This document shows positions 1 through 19,010 of a DNA stretch of 56,798 nt, piece after piece. Every line of letters begins with the position of its first letter. Positions within the stretch are counted from its first letter, which is position 1. Location: assembly GCA_020435995.1 (NCBI GenBank), contig JAGQYO010000017.1, positions 1 to 56,798 on the forward strand, given 5' to 3'. The position numbers and the translations under genes are program-made. The notes beneath the pieces are model-generated. The model worked only from the letters and a program-made list of their open reading frames with translations. It made no database searches and was not told the DNA's origin. This DNA comes from Flavobacteriales bacterium. GTDB taxonomy: Bacteria > Bacteroidota > Bacteroidia > Flavobacteriales_G > Salibacteraceae.

Positions 1-512
1 ACAGATGATCAGAACCTGATTTTATCAAATGATACGTTAAGAATAGAGGATGGAAATTACGTGGTTTTGCCTGCTGCTGCTGCCAATTTGGACAATGATT
101 CTACCAATGAGTTGATTGGTTCTTTTATTATAGTCAACGACTCCATTAAAATTACAGATGCTGGAGGCACTCGTGCAGTTAACCTAAGTTCATATTTGGA
201 CAATACCGATGCTCAAATGTTGTCGCTAAGTGGTGACACTATTTATTTGTCTAATGGCGGATTCATTAAACTACCGGCAGCCACCAGTGGATATGATGGA
301 GACAGCAGCAGTACGAATGAACTTCAAAACCTTGCCCTCATGAGCGATACACTGAGAATCAGCGGAGGAAACTACGTCGTATTGCCAACAGGAACAGTAA
401 ATACAGATGATCAGAACCTGATTTTATCAAATGATACGTTAAGAATAGAGGATGGAAATTACGTGGTTTTGCCTGCTGCCGCTGCCAATTTGGACAATGA
501 TTCAACCAATGA
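1..512 (+). repeat. Near-identical direct repeat pair inside the giant gene (1-111 and 403-512)
   Basis: Bases 1-111 and 403-512 match almost base for base (both begin ACAGATGATCAGAACCTG), with only a few third-position differences. The copies are therefore recent or are kept alike by gene conversion, while other repeat units in the same gene have diverged at the DNA level. Confidence 0.85.
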
Positions 513-3500
513 ACTCCAAGCCATTTCTATTTCGAATGACACTATTTATTTGTCTGATGGCGGTTTTGTAAAACTGCCTGCAGCCACAACAGGATTCGAT
601 GGGGACAGCAGCAGCACCAACGAACTCCAGGCCTTGTCTATGAATAATGATACTTTATACTTGACCAATGGAGGAAAGGTGTATTTGGGAAATTATACTA
701 ATACGGATAACCAAAATTTGATATTAGCTGGCAATAACCTAAGTATAAGTGGAGGTAATTCAGTCGCGCTTCCGTTAGCTCCTGCGAACAACGACAACGA
801 TTCCACCAACGAGTTGCAGAATTTATCGATTTCAGGAAACACAATTTCCATTAGCAATGGAAATAGCATCAACCTTCCTGCGGGAACCGTCAATAACGAC
901 AACGACTCCACTAACGAATACAATACTTCTGTGGGTTTGAGTGGCAACATATTATCGGTGACAGATGGAGGCGGAGCCAAAACAGCCGATCTAAGTGCAT
1001 TGAATCAAAGCGGTGAAGCAGCCACAGTTGATGCCAAGCGCCAAGCCGATTCGACTCAATTTGCAGGGGCAATTAATGGGTTGAATGGTGTGGCCTTTTT
1101 GGATACGAGTGCTTCTAATGAAATCCAAAGCTTATCGCTTTCAGGAAGTACACTTAGTATTTCAGGTGGCAATTCAGTGACCTTGCCGAATGCACCAGCG
1201 AACAATGACAACGACAGCACCAATGAGATTCAAGACTTGCAATTGGTAGGAACGTCGCTGAGTATAACCAACAACAGCTCGGCTACAGTCATCAATTTAG
1301 CACCATTTACTGGAAACAATACAGATAGTCAAAAACTGAGTATTTCAAACGACACCATTTTCTTAACTAATGGCGGTAGTGTAAAACTTCCAGCTGATAA
1401 CGTTAACGATGGTGACACAAGCAGTATAAATGAAATTCAGAACTTGTCTTTAAGTGGAAACGCGTTGTCTATTTCTGGAGGCAATACAATAGTGCTGCCT
1501 AGCGCAGCGGCTAGCCTCGACAACGATAGTACCAATGAATACAATACCTCATTCACTTTGTCGGGAAATAACCTGAGTATAGCTGACGGTGGTGGTTCAA
1601 AATCAGTTGATCTAAGTTCGTTTAAGGACAATACCGACAGTCAATCGTTGTCAGTTTCTGGCAGTAATTTATCGATAAGTGGAGGTAATACAGTAGCCCT
1701 ACCTAGTGTGCCAGTGAATAACGACAACGATTCTACCAATGAACTTGTAACAAGTTTTGGTCTAATAGGAAACTCTTTAAGCCTTACAGATGCTGGCGGA
1801 ACCAAAACGGTAAGTTTGGCAAGCTACCTGGACAATACCGATGCTCAGATGATTAGCATAAGTGGGGATACCATTTTCTTGAGTAATGGGGGAAGCATCA
1901 AACTACCAGCGGCGACTTCAGGATATGATGGAGACAGCAGCAGCACCAATGAATTGATTACCTATTTTGCAATTAATTCTAATAACCTCACCATTTCGGA
2001 CGCAGGAGGAGGAAAATCGGTGAGTTTAGCTCCATACTTGGATAACACCGATTCACAATCCTTGTCTCTGAGCGGCACTACTTTAAGTATTTCGGGAGGA
2101 AACAGTGTGACCTTGCCATCAGGAGCAGCCAACAACGATAATGATTCAACTAATGAATTAAACACTTCGGTTGCGTTTTCAGGAACTACCTTAACCATAA
2201 CAGATGCAGGTGGAGCAAAAACGGCGGATTTGTCTGCCTTAAAGGATAATACAGACTCACAATCCTTGAGTCTAGCTGGAAATATCCTAAGCATTTCGGG
2301 TGGAAACAACGTTACTTTACCATCAGGAACAGCAAGCAACGATAACGATTCAACAAATGAAATTCAAACCATATCCCTATCGGGAAATACGTTGTCGCTC
2401 AACAAAGGAGGGGGATCAACGAACCTTTCGAGTTATTTAGATAATACGGATGCGCAAACCTTGAGTCTCAGTGGAAGTGTTTTGAGTATTTCTGGAGGAA
2501 ATAACGTGACCTTGCCTTCTGGGGCAGCAAACAACGACAATGATTCCACCAATGAGTTAAACTCCTCGGTTGGGTTTTCTGGAACTACTCTGACCATAAC
2601 GGATGCAGGTGGTGCAAAAACTGCTGATTTGTCATCACTAAAAGACAATACGGATAGCCAAACGCTTTCACTCAGCGGAAATACCTTGAGTATTTCAGGT
2701 GGGAACAATGTGACCCTCCCAGCCAGTGCTGCAAACAACGACAACGACAGCACCAATGAGTTAAACACCGCTTTTGCCATTTCTTCCAACAACCTAACGA
2801 TAACTGATGCAGGGGGTGCCAAATCGGTGAGCCTTGCGCCATATTTGGACAACACCGATGCACAAACATTGTCGTTGAGTGGAAACACATTGACCATAAG
2901 TGGTGGAAACAATGTGACCCTTCCGAGTGGAAGCACTTATACTACTAAGGGAATAGATTCGGTTCTAACCGCTGGTAACAATGCAGCTGGATTGAATTTA
3001 ACAAACCTAGGAAGCTTAAGTGTGAACAATGGTGTAACAGCAAGTACGATCCGAATGACCACGGGAGCTGGAGCTAATAAAATTATGACTTCGGATGCTT
3101 CGGGAAATGCAACGTGGCAAACTGCTGCAACTGTAGCTGCTCCATCGGAAATAAAAGATGCCGATAACGATACCAAAATTCAAGTAGAAGAATCTGCGGA
3201 TGAAGACATTATCAGGTTCGATTTGGCAGGAACCGAACAATTTACCATGACCAAAGGGAGGTTTGAGCCACAAAATACAGGTAGAAGTTCTTTTTATGGT
3301 TACCAAGCTGGTTTGGGCGATGATTATACCAATAATGAAAACTCTGCATTCGGTTATCAGTCTTTAAAGAACATCACCACGGGAGTTAGAAACACGAGCA
3401 TGGGAACCTATAGTATGGATCAAACATCAGGTGTAAATAGTGACAACGTGGCGTTGGGAGCTTATTCTTTGCGAAGTGCAAACGGTGCGAATTACAATAC

Positions 3501-5640
3501 CGCCGTTGGTTCACAGGCCATGGAATTTGTCACTTCTGGCGACTACAACTCTGGTGTGGGTTATAGAGCATTAGAAAACATAAATGGTGGTGCCTACAAC
3601 AGTGCTGTTGGTGGTTATGCTGGTACCAGTATCTCTTCGGGAAGCTACAACGCTGCAATTGGCTATGAAGCATTGAGAACAAACACCAATGGCGCAGGCA
3701 ATGTGGCTTTTGGTTACAGGGCATTAAGATCGAATTCTTCAACATCCTACAATGTTGCTATCGGATACGACGCCTTATACAACAGCAACGCAGCAGGAAA
3801 TATAGCCATTGGATTTTATGCGATGCGTGCCAATACATCAGGTACATATAATGTGGCCATGGGATACAGGGCAATGAATAGCAATGTGAATGGTTCTCGA
3901 AATGTCAGTCTTGGGTTTTATTCGATGTACGACATGCTTACAGGTTCCTATAATGTTTCCATTGGTGATTACGCTTTGGCCAACAACATCAATGGAAGTA
4001 ACAATGTGGTACTGGGACGAAATGCCGGTTACAATAATGTTACAGGATCTACGAACGTATTTTTAGGCTACCAAGCTGGCTTTAACGAGCTTGGCTCAGA
4101 TGTTTTGTACATTGAAAACTCGAATTCAAGCACGCCATTGATTTACGGTGACTTTTCCAATGATTCGCTTAGAGTAAATGGCTCACTAACAGTTTCTGGT
4201 AATGTGGTTATACCAACGGGCGCCGGTGCCGGCAAAGTATTGGCTTCGGATGCAAATGGAAAGGCCACTTGGCAAGTGCCTGGGGCTGTATCCTTGGGAG
4301 ACACAACACAGGTTAGTGATTTAGACGGAGACACAAAAATTCAAACAGAAGAATCCTCTGATGAGGATATCATAAGATTCGATATTGCTGGTACAGAAAG
4401 ATGGGTGATGACTGGAGCTAGACTTGAAACTTACAACACTGGTTATTCCGTTTTTATCGGAGAAGATGCCGGTATGAACGATGATTTGAGTAACAATGGG
4501 AATAATTTTATTGGTTACCAAGCGGGTAGAGCCAATTCCACTGGGTCTAACAACGTGGGCATGGGCTATTACGCACTTCGCACAAATTCTACTGGCGCCA
4601 ATAACACCGCGTTGGGTTCCTATAGTTTGTATTTGAACCAAACTGGAAGTTCCAATTCGGCTTTAGGTTATGGCGCTTTGAGGTCAAATGTTACAGGTGA
4701 CTACAATTCCGCTCTTGGTTTATACAGCTTGTATGGTAACAGCACAGGCTCGTACAATGCTTCCACGGGTTATTACTCGCTAGCTGCAAATACTACTGGA
4801 TCGAATAATTCGGCATTTGGAGCCTTGTCGCTTCGTTTAAATACAACAGGTTATGATAACACGGCTCTTGGCGACAGGGCGGGTTATAACAACTCAACTG
4901 GTTACAGAAACATTTACATTGGAAGATGGGCTGGCTACTTCAACACTACGGGATATCATAATGTGTCGTTGGGATATTCTGCACTTTATAGAACCTCTTC
5001 AGGCTACGAAAATGTGGGTATTGGTTACTTAGCTGGAGACTACAACCAGGTTGGGTTAAGAAACACCTATGTGGGTTCTGGTACAGGTCCAAGCTCGGCT
5101 GCCAATTATAATAACTCAACGGCACTGGGTTATGGGGCAATTATTTCTGCCTCCAATCAAATTAGGATTGGTGACAATGCCGTAACAAGTATTGGAGGTT
5201 ACCAAGGTTGGACCAATGTATCGGATGCTAGGTTCAAAAAAGATGTAAATGAAAATGTAATTGGACTTGATTTTGTGATGGCGCTTCGCCCCGTAACCTA
5301 TCATTTAGATATGAACGCCATTGCGGAGTTTAACGGAATATCTGATAGCAGCAGAAACATGGAGGCTGAAATCGAAAAAGGAAAGATGCTTCAATCGGGT
5401 TTTATCGCCCAAGAAGTAGAGGCTTCAGCTAAATTGTTGGGATATGATTTTAGTGGAATTGATGCGCCCAAAAACCCCAATGACAATTATGGCTTGCGTT
5501 ATTCTGAATTTGTAGTTCCCTTGGTAAAAGGAATGCAAGAACAACAGCATATTATCGAAAAGCAACAACAAAAAATTGATCACCAAGAAATGCTTATTAA
5601 TGATCTACTGAAACGAATTGAGGCCCTCGAAGTGAAGTAG
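1..5640 (+). CDS. Giant repetitive surface protein with C-terminal S74 chaperone domain (5' end outside window)
   Basis: The frame is open from base 1, so the start lies to the left; 1879 residues are visible. Residues about 1-1000 are a beta-type repeat with the core DNDSTNE (at least eleven exact copies, plus DGDSSSTNE variants) followed by segments such as LSLSGNTLSISGGN. Two copies of a second module follow: an acidic linker (DTKIQxEES.DEDIIRFD, near residues 1053 and 1438), then short repeats of the type NNVAIGYxAL. From about residue 1736 comes a Peptidase_S74 domain (SDARFK at 1741), known in phage tail spikes as a self-cleaving trimerisation chaperone, and then a coiled coil rich in Gln and Glu. 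I infer a trimeric fibre or adhesin exposed on the cell. The signal peptide is not visible, but the paralogue at 6261 has one. Confidence 0.85.
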   Translation, partial: TDDQNLILSNDTLRIEDGNYVVLPAAAANLDNDSTNELIGSFIIVNDSIKITDAGGTRAVNLSSYLDNTDAQMLSLSGDTIYLSNGGFIKLPAATSGYDGDSSSTNELQNLALMSDTLRISGGNYVVLPTGTVNTDDQNLILSNDTLRIEDGNYVVLPAAAANLDNDSTNELQAISISNDTIYLSDGGFVKLPAATTGFDGDSSSTNELQALSMNNDTLYLTNGGKVYLGNYTNTDNQNLILAGNNLSISGGNSVALPLAPANNDNDSTNELQNLSISGNTISISNGNSINLPAGTVNNDNDSTNEYNTSVGLSGNILSVTDGGGAKTADLSALNQSGEAATVDAKRQADSTQFAGAINGLNGVAFLDTSASNEIQSLSLSGSTLSISGGNSVTLPNAPANNDNDSTNEIQDLQLVGTSLSITNNSSATVINLAPFTGNNTDSQKLSISNDTIFLTNGGSVKLPADNVNDGDTSSINEIQNLSLSGNALSISGGNTIVLPSAAASLDNDSTNEYNTSFTLSGNNLSIADGGGSKSVDLSSFKDNTDSQSLSVSGSNLSISGGNTVALPSVPVNNDNDSTNELVTSFGLIGNSLSLTDAGGTKTVSLASYLDNTDAQMISISGDTIFLSNGGSIKLPAATSGYDGDSSSTNELITYFAINSNNLTISDAGGGKSVSLAPYLDNTDSQSLSLSGTTLSISGGNSVTLPSGAANNDNDSTNELNTSVAFSGTTLTITDAGGAKTADLSALKDNTDSQSLSLAGNILSISGGNNVTLPSGTASNDNDSTNEIQTISLSGNTLSLNKGGGSTNLSSYLDNTDAQTLSLSGSVLSISGGNNVTLPSGAANNDNDSTNELNSSVGFSGTTLTITDAGGAKTADLSSLKDNTDSQTLSLSGNTLSISGGNNVTLPASAANNDNDSTNELNTAFAISSNNLTITDAGGAKSVSLAPYLDNTDAQTLSLSGNTLTISGGNNVTLPSGSTYTTKGIDSVLTAGNNAAGLNLTNLGSLSVNNGVTASTIRMTTGAGANKIMTSDASGNATWQTAATVAAPSEIKDADNDTKIQVEESADEDIIRFDLAGTEQFTMTKGRFEPQNTGRSSFYGYQAGLGDDYTNNENSAFGYQSLKNITTGVRNTSMGTYSMDQTSGVNSDNVALGAYSLRSANGANYNTAVGSQAMEFVTSGDYNSGVGYRALENINGGAYNSAVGGYAGTSISSGSYNAAIGYEALRTNTNGAGNVAFGYRALRSNSSTSYNVAIGYDALYNSNAAGNIAIGFYAMRANTSGTYNVAMGYRAMNSNVNGSRNVSLGFYSMYDMLTGSYNVSIGDYALANNINGSNNVVLGRNAGYNNVTGSTNVFLGYQAGFNELGSDVLYIENSNSSTPLIYGDFSNDSLRVNGSLTVSGNVVIPTGAGAGKVLASDANGKATWQVPGAVSLGDTTQVSDLDGDTKIQTEESSDEDIIRFDIAGTERWVMTGARLETYNTGYSVFIGEDAGMNDDLSNNGNNFIGYQAGRANSTGSNNVGMGYYALRTNSTGANNTALGSYSLYLNQTGSSNSALGYGALRSNVTGDYNSALGLYSLYGNSTGSYNASTGYYSLAANTTGSNNSAFGALSLRLNTTGYDNTALGDRAGYNNSTGYRNIYIGRWAGYFNTTGYHNVSLGYSALYRTSSGYENVGIGYLAGDYNQVGLRNTYVGSGTGPSSAANYNNSTALGYGAIISASNQIRIGDNAVTSIGGYQGWTNVSDARFKKDVNENVIGLDFVMALRPVTYHLDMNAIAEFNGISDSSRNMEAEIEKGKMLQSGFIAQEVEASAKLLGYDFSGIDAPKNPNDNYGLRYSEFVVPLVKGMQEQQHIIEKQQQKIDHQEMLINDLLKRIEALEVK

Positions 5641-5759
5641 GAAATATCATGTAATTAGCTTTTTTTGATACATTCTAAAAGCTTCTTGCTACATTTTACT
5701 ATGCCATTTTTCTGATGGTTTATAAGATTGGGTTAGTTTTATAGCTCTTCTTTAGGGGC

Positions 5760-6254
5760 ATGAAACAAACCATTCTATTTTCACTTTGCGTATTTTTTAG
5801 TGCTACGCTTTATGCACAAAACAGCATTTCGCGAAATTTTGTGGGTGCTGGTGGGGGTGAATACAACACTACTTTCGAAACCATTCAGTATAGCATAGGT
5901 GAGGCGGTTATCGATTTTTACACTGACACCGCGGAAAACTTGATAATTACTCAAGGATATCAGCAGCCATTCTATGTTTTAATGCCGCTCAAATCAAAAA
6001 CACTTTGTCAAGTCGAATTAAGGATTTGGCCCAATCCTACACAACGATTCATTCATGTTGAAATAGGAGATGGGGTAAAGCTCGAGGATGTAACCTGCTA
6101 TTTGTATCATTTAAACGGTTCTTTGGTAGGTAAATTCCGAATGGCGGAGACTAGCGAAATTGATTTATATCAATATGTATTAGATGCTTTTATCCTCCAT
6201 TTTGTAGATCATCAATCCAATTGTCATAAGGTATTTAAAGTCATTAAAAACTAA
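5760..6254 (+). CDS. Small secreted protein with T9SS type A sorting-like C-terminus
   Basis: 164 aa. Residues 1-19 form a signal peptide ending in LYA-Q. The segment around residues 25-75 (FVGAGGGEYNTTFETIQYSI ... ITQGYQQP) matches the pattern of short Bacteroidota exported proteins. The C-terminal part starts with a WPNPT motif at about residue 91 and ends in FKVIKN, the usual layout of a Por/T9SS type A sorting domain, which is cleaved after passage through the type IX system. It ends 6 bases before the S74 paralogue, so the two are probably co-transcribed. Its function beyond export is unknown. A link to fibre assembly or anchoring is only a guess from position. Confidence 0.7.
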   Translation: MKQTILFSLCVFFSATLYAQNSISRNFVGAGGGEYNTTFETIQYSIGEAVIDFYTDTAENLIITQGYQQPFYVLMPLKSKTLCQVELRIWPNPTQRFIHVEIGDGVKLEDVTCYLYHLNGSLVGKFRMAETSEIDLYQYVLDAFILHFVDHQSNCHKVFKVIKN

Positions 6255-6260
6255 ATAGTT

Positions 6261-8477
6261 ATGCGAAAAGTAATTTTGTTTATTGTGTTTGTATCCCTCG
6301 TCCAAGAAGCTTGGACTCAGGCACCTCAGCTCATCAATTATCAAGCGGTCATCCGGGACGCCAGTGGGCATATCCTCGAAAAAAAGGAGATAACGCTGCA
6401 ACTCGCTATCCATACCGAAAAAGCTGGTGGATTATATGTGTATAGCGAAGTGCATCGAGTTTTGACTAACCGCTACGGAATGGTAAACCTACAAATAGGT
6501 GGCGGAGAACCTACGCTTGGTAAACTCCCAGAAATAGATTGGACGAATGGGTCTTATTTTCTGGAGCTAGGTGTAGACCAAAATGCAGGTAACAACTTTA
6601 GAATATTGGGAAGTACCCGTTTTGTTTCGGTGCCTTATGCCTTAAATGCTGGAAATGTGAGCTATAAAGATACTAGTGCCTTCAACGAAATTCAGTGGCT
6701 ATCGATAAGCGGAGATACGCTTCGCCTTTCTGGTGGAAATGAGGTGATTCTTTCCGATATTTCCAAGAGCGATGACAATGACACGACCAATGAAATTCAG
6801 GTGGTTTCATTGGTTAACAACAATTTGTCGCTTTCAAAAAGTGGTGGTAGCATCAATTTGCAGCCTTATTTAGACAACACCGATTCACAACGTTTGGTAC
6901 TGAAAAACGATACCTTATTTATTAGCAATGGAAACTTTATTGTACTGCCTTCAAATTTGAGTTTAGATAATGATTCTACAAATGAACTTCAAGCTATATC
7001 ACTCCTAAACGACTCGTTGTTTTTTTCCAAAAATGGGGGAGTAGTTGGCTTGAAGAATTATTTGGACAATACAGATACCCAGCAATTAGCCATTTCAGGT
7101 GATACTTTGTCTATCCATAACGGCAATCAAGTGATGCTTCCAACTAACTACGATAATGATAGCACCAATGAAATCCAACAAATTTTTCTCTCAAATGATA
7201 CGCTATTCCTGACCAATAGCAATTTTGTTCCGCTTAACAAATTCAATGAGGACTCAACACGAATTGCAGATCGAGATGGCAACACCAGAGTGGAAGTTGA
7301 GGCCAATCCAAATGAAAATATCATTCGATTCAAAATGGATGGTGTACAATATTTGGCACTAGACAGTGGGCGAATTGAAGTTTACAATACTGGCTCATCG
7401 GTATTTTTAGGGGAAGAGGCCGGACTTAATGACGACCGATCATTTAACGACAATGTTTTTCTGGGAAATAGAGCAGGAAAAGGAAATACTGGTGGAATTA
7501 AAAACACAGCTATCGGAAAAGAAGCTATGCTGAACACAACTACAGGCTCATCCAATACCGCTGTTGGTTCGGGAGCAATGAACAACAACACGGTTGGATA
7601 TTATAATGTGGCAATCGGGCGAAATTCATTGTATTCGAATGTAATTTCATACTCCAATATAGCCATTGGGTTCAATGCTCTTCATGACCATATCACAAAT
7701 GGAGGAAACATTGCCATAGGAGAACAAACTTTAGAGCATAACATCTCGGGCTCTAAGAATGTGGCTATTGGATTTAAATCCTTGGATACCAACTCAACTG
7801 GAACCGAAAATGTGGCCATTGGCGGTGAATCGATGAAGGATAACTTGACGGGAAGTGAGAATGTAGCCATTGGATTTAGGGCTGGTTATAGCAGTATGGG
7901 CGACAAAAATATTTTTATTGGAAACTATGCGAGGGCAGATTCAGGCACAAGTTATTCGAACTCTATTTCCATTGGTTATTATTCGAAAAATACGGCATCA
8001 AATCAAGTTAGAATCGGTAATTCAATGTCAACAAGCATTGGAGGACAAGTAGGATGGACAACCATTTCGGATGGTCGATACAAGGAAAATCTAAAAAATG
8101 ATGTTGCCGGTCTTGATTTTATTCTTGAGTTGGAACCCGTAACGTACAATTTGAATACTGAAATGTTATATGAGGGATTGCAGGGAAAAGACGATGATGA
8201 ATTATCTGAATTTGAGGTAACTAGCAGAAATGCAAAAGGTAAAATAGTTCAGTCAGGATTTGTTGCCCAGGATGTGGAGCGTGCCGCAAAAAAAGTGGGT
8301 TATGACTTTAGCGGAGTAGATGCGCCCAAAAGCAAAAATGACATTTATGGCTTGCGTTATGCGGAATTTGTAGTTCCTTTGGTTAAGGGAATGCAAGAGC
8401 AGCAGGAGTTAATCCAAAAACAACAAAAATTGATTGAAGCTTTGAGCCAAAGGCTTGAGGCTTTGGAGCAGAAGTAG
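6261..8477 (+). CDS. Tail-fibre-like S74 surface protein (paralogue of the giant gene)
   Basis: 738 aa. Residues 1-20 are a signal peptide ending in WTQ. Next comes an N-terminal domain (about 21-130, QLINYQAVIRDASG ... FVSVPYALNA) common at the start of Bacteroidota S74 proteins. Residues 130-330 hold about five DNDSTNE-type repeats, 335-380 the acidic linker, 385-580 the NNVAIGF-type repeats, and 590-700 the S74 chaperone domain (SDGRYKENL near 603). A coiled coil closes the protein. The domain order equals that of the giant upstream protein but with fewer repeats and a single linker/head module, so this gene shows what its missing N-terminus probably looks like. The next gene follows after 2 bases. 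Confidence 0.85.
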   Translation: MRKVILFIVFVSLVQEAWTQAPQLINYQAVIRDASGHILEKKEITLQLAIHTEKAGGLYVYSEVHRVLTNRYGMVNLQIGGGEPTLGKLPEIDWTNGSYFLELGVDQNAGNNFRILGSTRFVSVPYALNAGNVSYKDTSAFNEIQWLSISGDTLRLSGGNEVILSDISKSDDNDTTNEIQVVSLVNNNLSLSKSGGSINLQPYLDNTDSQRLVLKNDTLFISNGNFIVLPSNLSLDNDSTNELQAISLLNDSLFFSKNGGVVGLKNYLDNTDTQQLAISGDTLSIHNGNQVMLPTNYDNDSTNEIQQIFLSNDTLFLTNSNFVPLNKFNEDSTRIADRDGNTRVEVEANPNENIIRFKMDGVQYLALDSGRIEVYNTGSSVFLGEEAGLNDDRSFNDNVFLGNRAGKGNTGGIKNTAIGKEAMLNTTTGSSNTAVGSGAMNNNTVGYYNVAIGRNSLYSNVISYSNIAIGFNALHDHITNGGNIAIGEQTLEHNISGSKNVAIGFKSLDTNSTGTENVAIGGESMKDNLTGSENVAIGFRAGYSSMGDKNIFIGNYARADSGTSYSNSISIGYYSKNTASNQVRIGNSMSTSIGGQVGWTTISDGRYKENLKNDVAGLDFILELEPVTYNLNTEMLYEGLQGKDDDELSEFEVTSRNAKGKIVQSGFVAQDVERAAKKVGYDFSGVDAPKSKNDIYGLRYAEFVVPLVKGMQEQQELIQKQQKLIEALSQRLEALEQK

Positions 8478-8479
8478 GA

Positions 8480-10372
8480 GTGAAGTCATATTTTAGAATT
8501 ACCTGCCGTTCGGTAGGTGCCACATTTTTCTTTTTGGTTTTCAGTGTGTTATCGCTCGTAGTAATTGCACAGCCCTTGAGTGAAATCAATGATTCACTCT
8601 ACAAAAACAGTGAATATGCTTTAGCCAAACTGGATTCGATTTTGGCGGTCGAGAATTCGGATACTGTGCTGTATAGAACTTTTGAACTAAAAGGATTGGC
8701 ACTTCACGGTCGAACCAAGTATGGCGAAGCCGTTTTATCCTTCCAAAAAATGTTGGAACTAGCCATTGAAATGAACGATACTTTTCGAATTTATAATGCT
8801 CGAAACCGGTTGTCGGGGCCTCATTTTTATTTAGGTAATTACAAAGAGTGTTTTGAGTTGTACCATCAGAATTATACCATGGTTGAAAACATGAAGGAGT
8901 GCCAGATGCAACCAACCGCCATACTCAATTTAGCCAACATGTATTACTATCTGTCTAAAAAGGACAAGGCATTGCGAATGCAGCATAAGGCCAATCAGGT
9001 AGCTGTGGCGTGTAAGGATAAAAGGGTAACTGAGCTGTCTGCACGAAACATTGCTGCTATTTATACGGAGAAAAAAATGCGAGACAGTGCCATTATTTGG
9101 ATGAAGTATGGCATTGGTCTCATAGAGGAAGGAAACCTTGTTGGGCTTTCGAATGCCACTTCAATTTTGGGCGGGGTGTACAACTATCCAGAAGAAAAGG
9201 ATAGTATGTATTATTACTTCAACCGCGCTAGGCATTTGGCCGAAAAAGCAGGAGATTCCGCCACCATGGCCTTTGTTTACCTAAAGCTATGTTCTTATTA
9301 CATCCAAGAAAACATTCTAGATTCAGCGGCATATTTTGCGAAAGTTCCACTTCGAATTTATCGTCGTCTTGAATTGGTAGACGGCATACAACACGCGCTA
9401 GGGTATCTTGTAGATGTATATCAAAAGGAAGAAAACAAAGAAAAAGCACTCACCAATTTGTGGGAGTTGTTCAGGGTAAGAGATACCATTCTTGATGAAA
9501 TTACAGCCATCAAAACTGCGGAGCTGGAGACCATGTACGAAACCGAGAAAAAGGAAAGAGAAAACCTAGAACTTAAAGCTGAAAATGATAAAAAGGAAAT
9601 AACCATTGCACAAGAAAAAACTGAGAAGAGCTTATTGCTTTTCGGAGCTATTTTGTTTGCGCTGCTCTTGAGCTCAGGGGCGTTTATATGGTTTTTGAGG
9701 GTCCGACTAAAACAAAAGGAAAAATTAGCACAACTAGAAAAGGAAAAAACAGGGGCTATTATTGCTGCCGAAGAAAAAGAAAGAACCCGAATTGCACGCG
9801 AACTACACGATGGTGTGGGGCAGATGCTCAGTGGCTTGAAACTTAACTTCGAACATTTGGCAAACAAAACAATTGACAGGCTTCCTGAAGAACGGGAAGC
9901 TTTTGCATCCTTATTGGCTGTTGTTGATGAGGCTTGTAAGGATGTGCGAACAATTTCTCATCAAATGATGCCCCGAGCTTTACAAGAGCAGGGATTGGTT
10001 TTGGCTATTGAAGAAATGCTTGCTCAAAGTTTAAATCACAGTCCGATTAAGTACCAATTCGAACATTTTCAAATCGACTCGCGATTCGATAACAAGGTAG
10101 AGTTGAGTTTGTATAGAATTTGCCAAGAATTAGTCAATAACATCATCAAACACTCGTCGGCTACCGAACTCAATGTTCAGCTTTACAAAGCTAAAAACCA
10201 GCTTATTATGATAGTAGAAGATAATGGTAAAGGCTTTCAAACTGGTGATAAGAAAGACGGAATTGGCTTGCTCAACATGAATAGCCGCATCGACACCGTT
10301 AAGGGAATAATTAACTTCGATTCGAGCCCCAATAGCGGAACAACTGCAACAGTACGAGTACCTTTGGGTTAG
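8480..10372 (+). CDS. TPR-containing sensor histidine kinase, NarL/LytS-type (HisKA_3)
   Basis: 630 aa with a GTG start 2 bases after the S74 gene; the hydrophobic N-terminus (about 12-31, ending in AQP) is a signal peptide and supports this start. Residues 40-340 are helical TPR-like repeats, predicted periplasmic. A coiled coil (about 345-385), one membrane helix (about 389-411) and a second coiled coil follow. The phosphoacceptor site is ARELHDGVGQ near residue 443 (HisKA_3 family), and the ATPase domain has ELVNNIIKHS, EDNGKGF and GIGLLNM. No response regulator gene is next to it, so the partner is unknown. Its 3' end overlaps the convergent gene by 4 bases. Confidence 0.85.
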   Translation: MKSYFRITCRSVGATFFFLVFSVLSLVVIAQPLSEINDSLYKNSEYALAKLDSILAVENSDTVLYRTFELKGLALHGRTKYGEAVLSFQKMLELAIEMNDTFRIYNARNRLSGPHFYLGNYKECFELYHQNYTMVENMKECQMQPTAILNLANMYYYLSKKDKALRMQHKANQVAVACKDKRVTELSARNIAAIYTEKKMRDSAIIWMKYGIGLIEEGNLVGLSNATSILGGVYNYPEEKDSMYYYFNRARHLAEKAGDSATMAFVYLKLCSYYIQENILDSAAYFAKVPLRIYRRLELVDGIQHALGYLVDVYQKEENKEKALTNLWELFRVRDTILDEITAIKTAELETMYETEKKERENLELKAENDKKEITIAQEKTEKSLLLFGAILFALLLSSGAFIWFLRVRLKQKEKLAQLEKEKTGAIIAAEEKERTRIARELHDGVGQMLSGLKLNFEHLANKTIDRLPEEREAFASLLAVVDEACKDVRTISHQMMPRALQEQGLVLAIEEMLAQSLNHSPIKYQFEHFQIDSRFDNKVELSLYRICQELVNNIIKHSSATELNVQLYKAKNQLIMIVEDNGKGFQTGDKKDGIGLLNMNSRIDTVKGIINFDSSPNSGTTATVRVPLG

Positions 10373-18282: not shown

Positions 18283-18813
18283 ATGAGTAAACGTGCACTC
18301 ACCAAATATCTTCAAGAGCTTCCTAAAGAAGAGCTCGAATTGCAAATTTTGGATCTTTACAATAGATTGAAAGAGGTAAAAACCTTTTATGATTTTGTAT
18401 TCAACCCAAAAGAAGAGAAGTTGTTTGAAGATGCCAAACTGAAAATTGCGTTAGAGTATTTTCCCGCGGGTCGTCGAAAAAGAGCCAAAATGCGCCGAAC
18501 CGTGGCCTCCAAACTAATTAAGCATTTTGTTCAACTGGGAGCCGATCCCGTTAGAATTCTTGACTTAATGCTTTTTCATATTCAGACTGCACAGGCATAC
18601 AGCCTTGAACGTCCGATCTACCTTGAGAGCTTTTATAAAGCAATGCTCAAATCATTTGAAGATGCGCTTGAATTTGCGAGAGCCAATGGAATTGAGTTGG
18701 ATTTTAAAAACCGATTTGAAGGCATTATGAAGGAGGCAATTGATCAAGATTGGATTAATGCGGAAGGATTTGAAAGGGTTTTGATGCCGAAAGCCATAAG
18801 GAGTGAGTTTTGA
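18283..18813 (+). CDS. DUF6155 family protein
   Basis: 176 aa from the ATG at 18283 (MSKRALTKYLQELPKEELEL). The open frame extends 16 codons upstream, but that stretch is the promoter. The protein is helical and charged, with KEVKTFYDFVFNPKEEKLFE and FPAGRRKRAKMRRTVASK as its most distinctive parts; this pattern is shared by the DUF6155 family of Bacteroidota. No catalytic motif is visible. Nothing in the neighbours indicates a function. Confidence 0.65.
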   Translation: MSKRALTKYLQELPKEELELQILDLYNRLKEVKTFYDFVFNPKEEKLFEDAKLKIALEYFPAGRRKRAKMRRTVASKLIKHFVQLGADPVRILDLMLFHIQTAQAYSLERPIYLESFYKAMLKSFEDALEFARANGIELDFKNRFEGIMKEAIDQDWINAEGFERVLMPKAIRSEF

Positions 18814-19010
18814 ATGTTGAATGTTGAATGTTGAAATTTGAGTTTTGAATTTTCAAAGTTCTGCTGGTTGGTTTGTGTTCATCTGAATAATCTGCGAGAG
18901 GTATAATGTAAAATGTAAAAGGTAAATTGTAAAACACTCCGCGTAGCTCTGCGCCTTCTTCCGCTTTTCGGAACTTCACCTTCGGCTTATTTGCGGCCCT
19001 TTGCGAAACA
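18808..19010. repeat. Degenerate intergenic heptamer repeats
   Basis: The 326-base gap before aspA holds three kinds of low-complexity unit: TTGAATG repeated about four times (18811-18850), AAATGTA-like units (18901-18934), and GC-richer fragments of the TCTGCG / TTTGCG kind (18888-19010). It contains no gene. Similar mini-repeats occur at 46905-46978. Confidence 0.6.

Follow-up and report, generated by a model that had tools for sequence, protein, structure and literature searches.

The window, by which we mean the whole 56,798-base stretch analysed here, is an entire contig (C87) of the 3.76-Mb, 207-contig draft genome of a marine Bacteroidota bacterium, whose closest named relative among the matches listed in our genome scan is a metagenome genome of the Crocinitomicaceae. 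Two open reading frames for fibre proteins, at 1–5640 and 6261–8477, lie at its start, and the Peptidase_S74 domain (PF13884) scores 31.0 bits in the first, giant protein and 31.7 bits in the second, against a Pfam cut-off of 22; the Ser-Lys motif is present in both. The giant fibre carries exactly 11 copies of DNDSTNE, where the initial annotation had counted at least eleven, and its 27 anchors are spaced 30–68 aa overall. The doubled linker/head module described earlier is likewise present (linkers at aa 1055 and 1442), and SDARFK follows at aa 1741. The second fibre consists of a signal peptide, N-domain, anchors, a single linker/head, S74 (SDGRYK at aa 603) and a coiled coil. It had been described as a paralogue sharing all domains of the giant with fewer repeats; fewer repeats are indeed found (2 versus 11 DNDSTNE, 6 versus 27 anchors), while the sharing of all domains can be compared only through a probable N-terminal part of the truncated giant on another contig. 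The spacing of 0.6 kb given between the two fibres corresponds to a 620-base gap that is occupied by an overlooked gene at 5760–6254, the stop of which lies 6 nt ahead of the second fibre's start. We refer to its product as the partner.

Table 1. Features of the two fibre genes and the partner gene (positions in the window unless a contig is named)
Feature	Position	Strand	Description
Giant fibre gene, 3' part	1..5640	+	ORF, 1879 aa; 5' end beyond contig start
Shaft of giant fibre	1..2943	+	27 half-unit anchors, DNDSTNE / NTDxQ types, mostly 30–39 aa apart
First copy of near-identical repeat	1..110	+	98% identical to 403–512, first 77 bases exact; at assembly break
Second copy of near-identical repeat	403..512	+	
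Linker 1	3055..3255	+	GAGANKIMTSDASGNATWQ ... DTKIQVEES ... IRFDLAG; edges approximate
Head 1	3268..4125	+	GxNxAxG-type repeats; edges approximate
Linker 2	4228..4425	+	GAGAGKVLASDANGKATWQ ... DTKIQTEES ... IRFDIAG; edges approximate
Head 2	4426..5190	+	Edges approximate
S74 chaperone/protease of giant fibre	5191..5637	+	SDARFK (Ser at 5221), C-terminal coiled coil
Probable N-terminal part of giant fibre	C195:5684–8308		Signal peptide, N-domain, coiled-coil-like spacer
Small partner	5760..6254	+	164 aa; signal peptide, 'GE...ITQGYQQ' beta domain, T9SS-type CTD
Second fibre	6261..8477	+	738 aa, complete ORF
N-terminal domain of second fibre	6324..6680	+	Homologous to Bdellovibrio MAT N-domain
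Short shaft	6681..7260	+	6 anchors
Linker + head	7275..8036	+	Predicted beta solenoid/roll
S74 domain of second fibre	8067..8300	+	SDGRYK

Base 1 of the window coincides with the start of contig C87 and the reading frame 1–5640 is open at its 5' end; the giant fibre gene is therefore truncated. Another contig of the genome, C195 (8308 bases), stops within an 875-aa open frame that bears the giant's repeat types and is preceded by a small partner gene of its own, and its terminal 55 bases are identical to window positions 255–309. In the related genome G002 (PAVO01000005), a single contig holds in order a partner, a 1967-aa giant, a partner and a 768-aa paralogue. Because of the shared repeats, the overlap between C195 and the window and the gene order of G002, C195 probably carries the missing N-terminal part, and the full giant fibre would be about 2,700 aa or longer if C195 joins C87. 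A further truncated fibre N-terminus is found on contig C30. Downstream of the fibres, a gene for a TPR sensor histidine kinase (HisKA_3, HATPase_c; 8480–10372) starts 3 nt past the stop of the second fibre; the kinase is absent from the equivalent position in G002. A short tandem repeat of 7/21 bases lies at 18804–18860, and a scan for promoter and terminator signals found no excess over shuffles.

The N-terminal domains of the six fibres of this genome align with one another and share invariant YQA..RD and VP.A motifs. The mosaic adhesive trimer (MAT) N-domain model NF053851 matched ten of ten N-domains without signal peptide (E 2e-10 to 3e-7) and 81 of 82 complete fibres, namely the window paralogue and 81 of 90 complete fibres from the scan, the longest being excluded. 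N-domains of the window genome score about 30–38 bits with this model (window paralogue, 32.9; C195, 31.6), below the curated cut-off of 60 bits for the Bdello_MAT_N subfamily, and we therefore call the fibres MAT-like rather than members of that subfamily. By sequence profile, the fibre N-domain is distantly homologous to that of Bdellovibrio MAT. Comparison with PDB sequences by phmmer found none related, a Foldseek search gave no match at E ≤ 0.001, and VIA-align 2 returned common beta-sandwich matches only, which carry no weight as evidence. The tips of the same 82 fibres comprise S74 (19), Lcl_C (14), Fib_succ_major (13) and collagen (12), and more rarely Big_1 (4), Peptidase_G2 (3) and C1q (1). 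In genome G000, contig C43 (49–57 kb, L043) encodes an N-domain fibre of 2318 aa and its partner, then more tip-like genes and a 1342-aa S74 protein on the same strand. The genome scan confirmed at least 549 relatives, against one in viral contigs, and homologous fibres were found in 50 of 60 related genomes examined. The MAT-like surface-fibre system is probably phylum-wide in Bacteroidota. A search of open-access titles and abstract beginnings found no report of MAT fibres in Bacteroidota or of the pairing of fibre and partner.

A single-chain model of the 738-aa fibre gave an all-beta N-domain with high confidence (pLDDT 86–98 for residues 21–120, in blocks of ten), a shaft mostly below 50, a head at about 57–86 and a low-scoring S74 part, as would be expected if the chain folds as a trimer. 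VIA-align 2 matched the head to YdcK (Z 13.0, 9.9 Å) and to CbpF (9gh5; Z 10.7, rmsd 8.4 Å across 176 residues), loose matches that would fit a beta solenoid or roll. Alignments with a viral structure library were long and poor and were set aside.

In the model of the window partner, the C-terminal domain is well predicted from residue 81 onwards (pLDDT 88–98, in blocks of ten) and the N-terminal half is weak (55–76). The top fold match is the T9SS substrate CTD 8glk_D (TMt 0.87, 1.8 Å, E 1.9e-3), with further matches of the CTD to 8qb1 and 8gl8; the fold search yielded no match at E 1e-3 or better. With Pfam, the window partner's CTD scores 17.8 bits, below the curated cut-off of 27, and a T9SS sorting domain was matched by 50 of 52 members of the partner family (E ≤ 0.001). 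As modelled, the C-terminal end of the partner has the T9SS substrate CTD fold. SprA is encoded in the genome (1070 bits, at a contig edge), indicating that the T9SS is present. A profile of our own for the T9SS CTD matched none of the 90 complete fibres. An S74 protein of G000 that is cut by the contig start (C137:3–1022, L041) seemingly has a T9SS-like tail after S74, which sets it apart from the cassette fibres. Fibre-adjacent proteins in G036 (C74) and G055 (C71) match the N-terminal half of the partner and not the usual T9SS CTD; by these two cases, the sorting tail of the partner may be exchangeable.

Partner and fibre genes were directly observed to be paired. The window genome has six N-domain fibres and six full-length partners, all six of them adjacent. 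Among the matches listed for 60 relatives, from which weak matches are missing, 91 of 96 full-length partners lie beside a same-strand fibre: 70 within 150 bases directly upstream, one within 150 bases downstream and 20 within 3.5 kb; the other five lie on a contig without a listed fibre. As a control, one of 48 listed rows with a T9SS CTD only lies within 4 kb of a fibre, and that row (G050:C24) is possibly a short partner. Viewed from the fibre, 81 scan loci hold 111 N-domains, 60 of which have a same-strand partner within 6 kb (directly upstream, at ≤ 200 bases, in 44) and 51 of which do not, four of these being near a contig end. By locus, both partner halves are found in 48, the CTD only in 4, the other half only in 1 and neither in 28. 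The pairing is strong as seen from the partner and partial as seen from the fibre. One Bacteroidales locus (L108) has an array of five N-domain fibres, near which a partner of either half was not found; in another (L062; G017:C2, 416–425 kb), a run of five consecutive fibre genes with N-domains closes with one partner gene, which raises the possibility that one partner serves several fibres.

The two components also co-vary. Across 71 cassettes, distances of the N-domain and of the mature partner correlate with rho 0.431, a value reached by none of 1000 shuffles of partners among cassettes within a genome (rho 0.139, sd 0.048). Correlation with the N-domain is higher for the non-CTD half of the partner (0.429) than for the CTD (0.314), and the nearest cassette from another genome agrees for N-domain and partner in 24 of 71 cases. 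Since linkage can produce co-variation, this result establishes joint inheritance of the cassette but not contact between its proteins.

Based on these findings, we propose, with a probability of about 0.6, that the locus holds two consecutive cassettes, each combining a small protein exported by the T9SS with a MAT-like surface fibre docked by it. The fibre would be a Sec-exported chain in which a conserved N-terminal beta domain of about 120 aa is followed by a shaft of beta repeats, at least one beta-roll head and an S74 domain, which is predicted to template trimer formation and then to cleave itself off. We infer that, once the T9SS has exported and attached it, the partner holds the N-domain of the fibre, and with it the displayed trimer, at the cell surface. 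Base and partner would be kept constant, and shaft length and distal tip would be varied by gain or loss of units and by recombination at the conserved linkers. The tips probably adhere to, or recognise, surfaces, cells or glycans. Docking is the step that draws on gene pairing and co-variation, and physical linkage alone could yield both.

An alternative, which we judge rather unlikely, is that the fibres are MAT-like adhesins anchored by other means, whereas the partner, though linked and co-regulated, is just a surface protein with a separate task. The 28 loci with neither partner half nearby fit this explanation, and the co-variation may stem from linkage. Bdellovibrio is not known to have a T9SS. 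Its MATs are displayed on the cell surface (PMC10769870). Against it stand the near-constant presence of a fibre beside the partner (91 of 96 among the matches listed, and six of six in the window genome), the lack of a T9SS CTD in all 90 fibres searched, and the fact that it is the non-CTD half of the partner that co-varies most. In a stronger form of the docking model proposed above, which we put a little short of even odds, the partner may be a dedicated surface anchor, perhaps also an export carrier, of Bacteroidota MAT-type fibres; its short beta domain would grip the fibre N-domain, with the T9SS carrying the partner out and attaching it.

The shaft varies in length between species. Recombination had been suggested to change fibre length, and this is borne out by same-locus orthologous giants of three congeners, which have 27, 20 and 17 anchors (1998, 1747 and 1676 aa), and by recent unit copies in G022 (units 6/7, 95.5% DNA identity), G002 (units 7/18, 94.6%) and the window (1–110/403–512). 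Most other unit families within the giant gene are 60–80% identical in DNA, and Tandem Repeats Finder detected no array in 1–8477. Four-fold identity between units is 0.305 inside the gene and 0.314 against other genes; the likeness of the units is held by selection on protein, because the unit DNA is mostly saturated, and concerted evolution of the whole shaft was ruled out by the same saturation. Of 46 window/C195 units, 20 have their nearest DNA neighbour within the gene to which they belong (0.43, versus 0.32 expected). By these comparisons, most shaft units appear old and recent copies isolated.

The distal tip has a history of its own in three draft genomes of genus g10 (G025, G022 and G009). 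Counting sites shared as G025=G022, G025=G009 and G022=G009, respectively, four flanking genes together gave 48/59/562, the partner gene 77/35/36, the N-domain 73/17/11, head 1 207/24/38, linker 2 15/27/30 (235 sites identical in all three), head 2 44/221/53 and S74 12/82/22. Flanks, base to head 1, and head 2 to S74 have three differing histories, with the switch at linker 2. Histories differ between head 1 and head 2 (chi-square 264, nominal p 4e-58) and between flanks and partner (chi-square 241, nominal p 4e-53), the sites not being independent in either test. The simplest reading is that the base of the cassette and, separately, its distal tip were exchanged between species, with the equivalent of linker 2 as the recombination joint in this genus. 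Of the head swapping proposed in the initial annotation, exchange of tips between species is seen in this triplet; swapping between head 1 and head 2 was rejected, each head being orthologous to its own counterpart. The conversion tracts expected between the two window fibres were not seen either: four-fold sites of the S74 region are identical at 16 of 33 positions, with no long identical tract, and C-terminal four-fold identity is 18/49 between the paralogues of G002 and 13/36 and 9/37 between orthologues.

Assembly artefacts at repeats could in principle account for both this mosaic and the near-identical repeat pair, which was found as described earlier (1–110 and 403–512, with window 1–77 equal to 403–479). 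Base 1 of the window is a contig edge at this 77-base exact repeat, the identity of 255–309 with the end of C195 points the same way, and the copy number of the pair is uncertain because the pair is located at the assembly break. The mosaic switch falls in the most conserved linker, and since the triplet genomes are drafts, a chimeric contig joined at the linker is a possible source of the mosaic. We nonetheless give artefact a low probability, as 2 of 110 bases distinguish the repeat copies, whose downstream sequences diverge, and the triplet's partner and N-domain, far from the linker, also break the flank phylogeny. The idea that these genes are phage tail fibres or phage/tailocin remnants, for which speak the matches of PHROGs tail-spike models to heads and S74 (phrog_4636, 1.9e-96 and 2.1e-65) and the frequent occurrence of S74 and linked folds in phage, was rejected as highly improbable, because the N-domain occurs at one locus in 2.9 million viral contigs, partner and N-domain had no match in 50,697 phage records, a scan of ten further window proteins gave ordinary chromosomal proteins or no match and none from phage, signal peptides are predicted on fibre and partner, and no cassette was seen within a phage or tailocin cluster.

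According to the Bdellovibrio study (Caulton et al. 2024, PMC10769870), the surface element that binds the MAT N-domain awaits identification. For MAT-like fibres, the small T9SS protein is a concrete candidate anchor. Were the anchor reading true, it would answer this question for Bacteroidota and define a modular system with a constant base-plus-anchor and exchangeable shafts and tips. The pairing also points to a possible route for T9SS display of proteins without a T9SS signal of their own, and tip exchange has left its traces at the linkers of natural genomes.

The window proteins resemble several known systems. Like the endosialidase-type intramolecular S74 chaperone proteins of phage, the fibres carry SDxRxK in an S74 domain that scores above the Pfam cut-off, and they differ from them in being chromosomal and in having a signal peptide and a MAT-like N-domain. 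The head model resembles CbpF (9gh5) of the trimeric autotransporter adhesins (YadA, CbpF), whereas the window chain ends in S74 and a coiled coil and its anchor is probably on the N-terminal side; a Pfam search at E ≤ 0.01 for a C-terminal membrane anchor found only S74, and the model ends in a helix. The partner has the CTD fold of T9SS type A cargo and, unlike such cargo, is only about 165 aa long, its signal peptide and CTD enclosing a single small beta domain. Closest are the prey-recognition MAT fibres (NF053851) of the predator Bdellovibrio bacteriovorus, for which Caulton et al. report S74, C-type lectin and TNF-like tips (PMC10769870). As in those fibres, a homologous N-domain directly follows the signal peptide and the ends are mosaic, with SDxxxK S74 tips in the window fibres and C-type-lectin-like and C1q/TNF-like tips in their relatives. 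Unlike MAT, the window fibres belong to Bacteroidota and score below the curated cut-off, and they combine a DNDSTNE/NTDxQ shaft of up to thousands of residues with doubled heads and a paired small T9SS protein.
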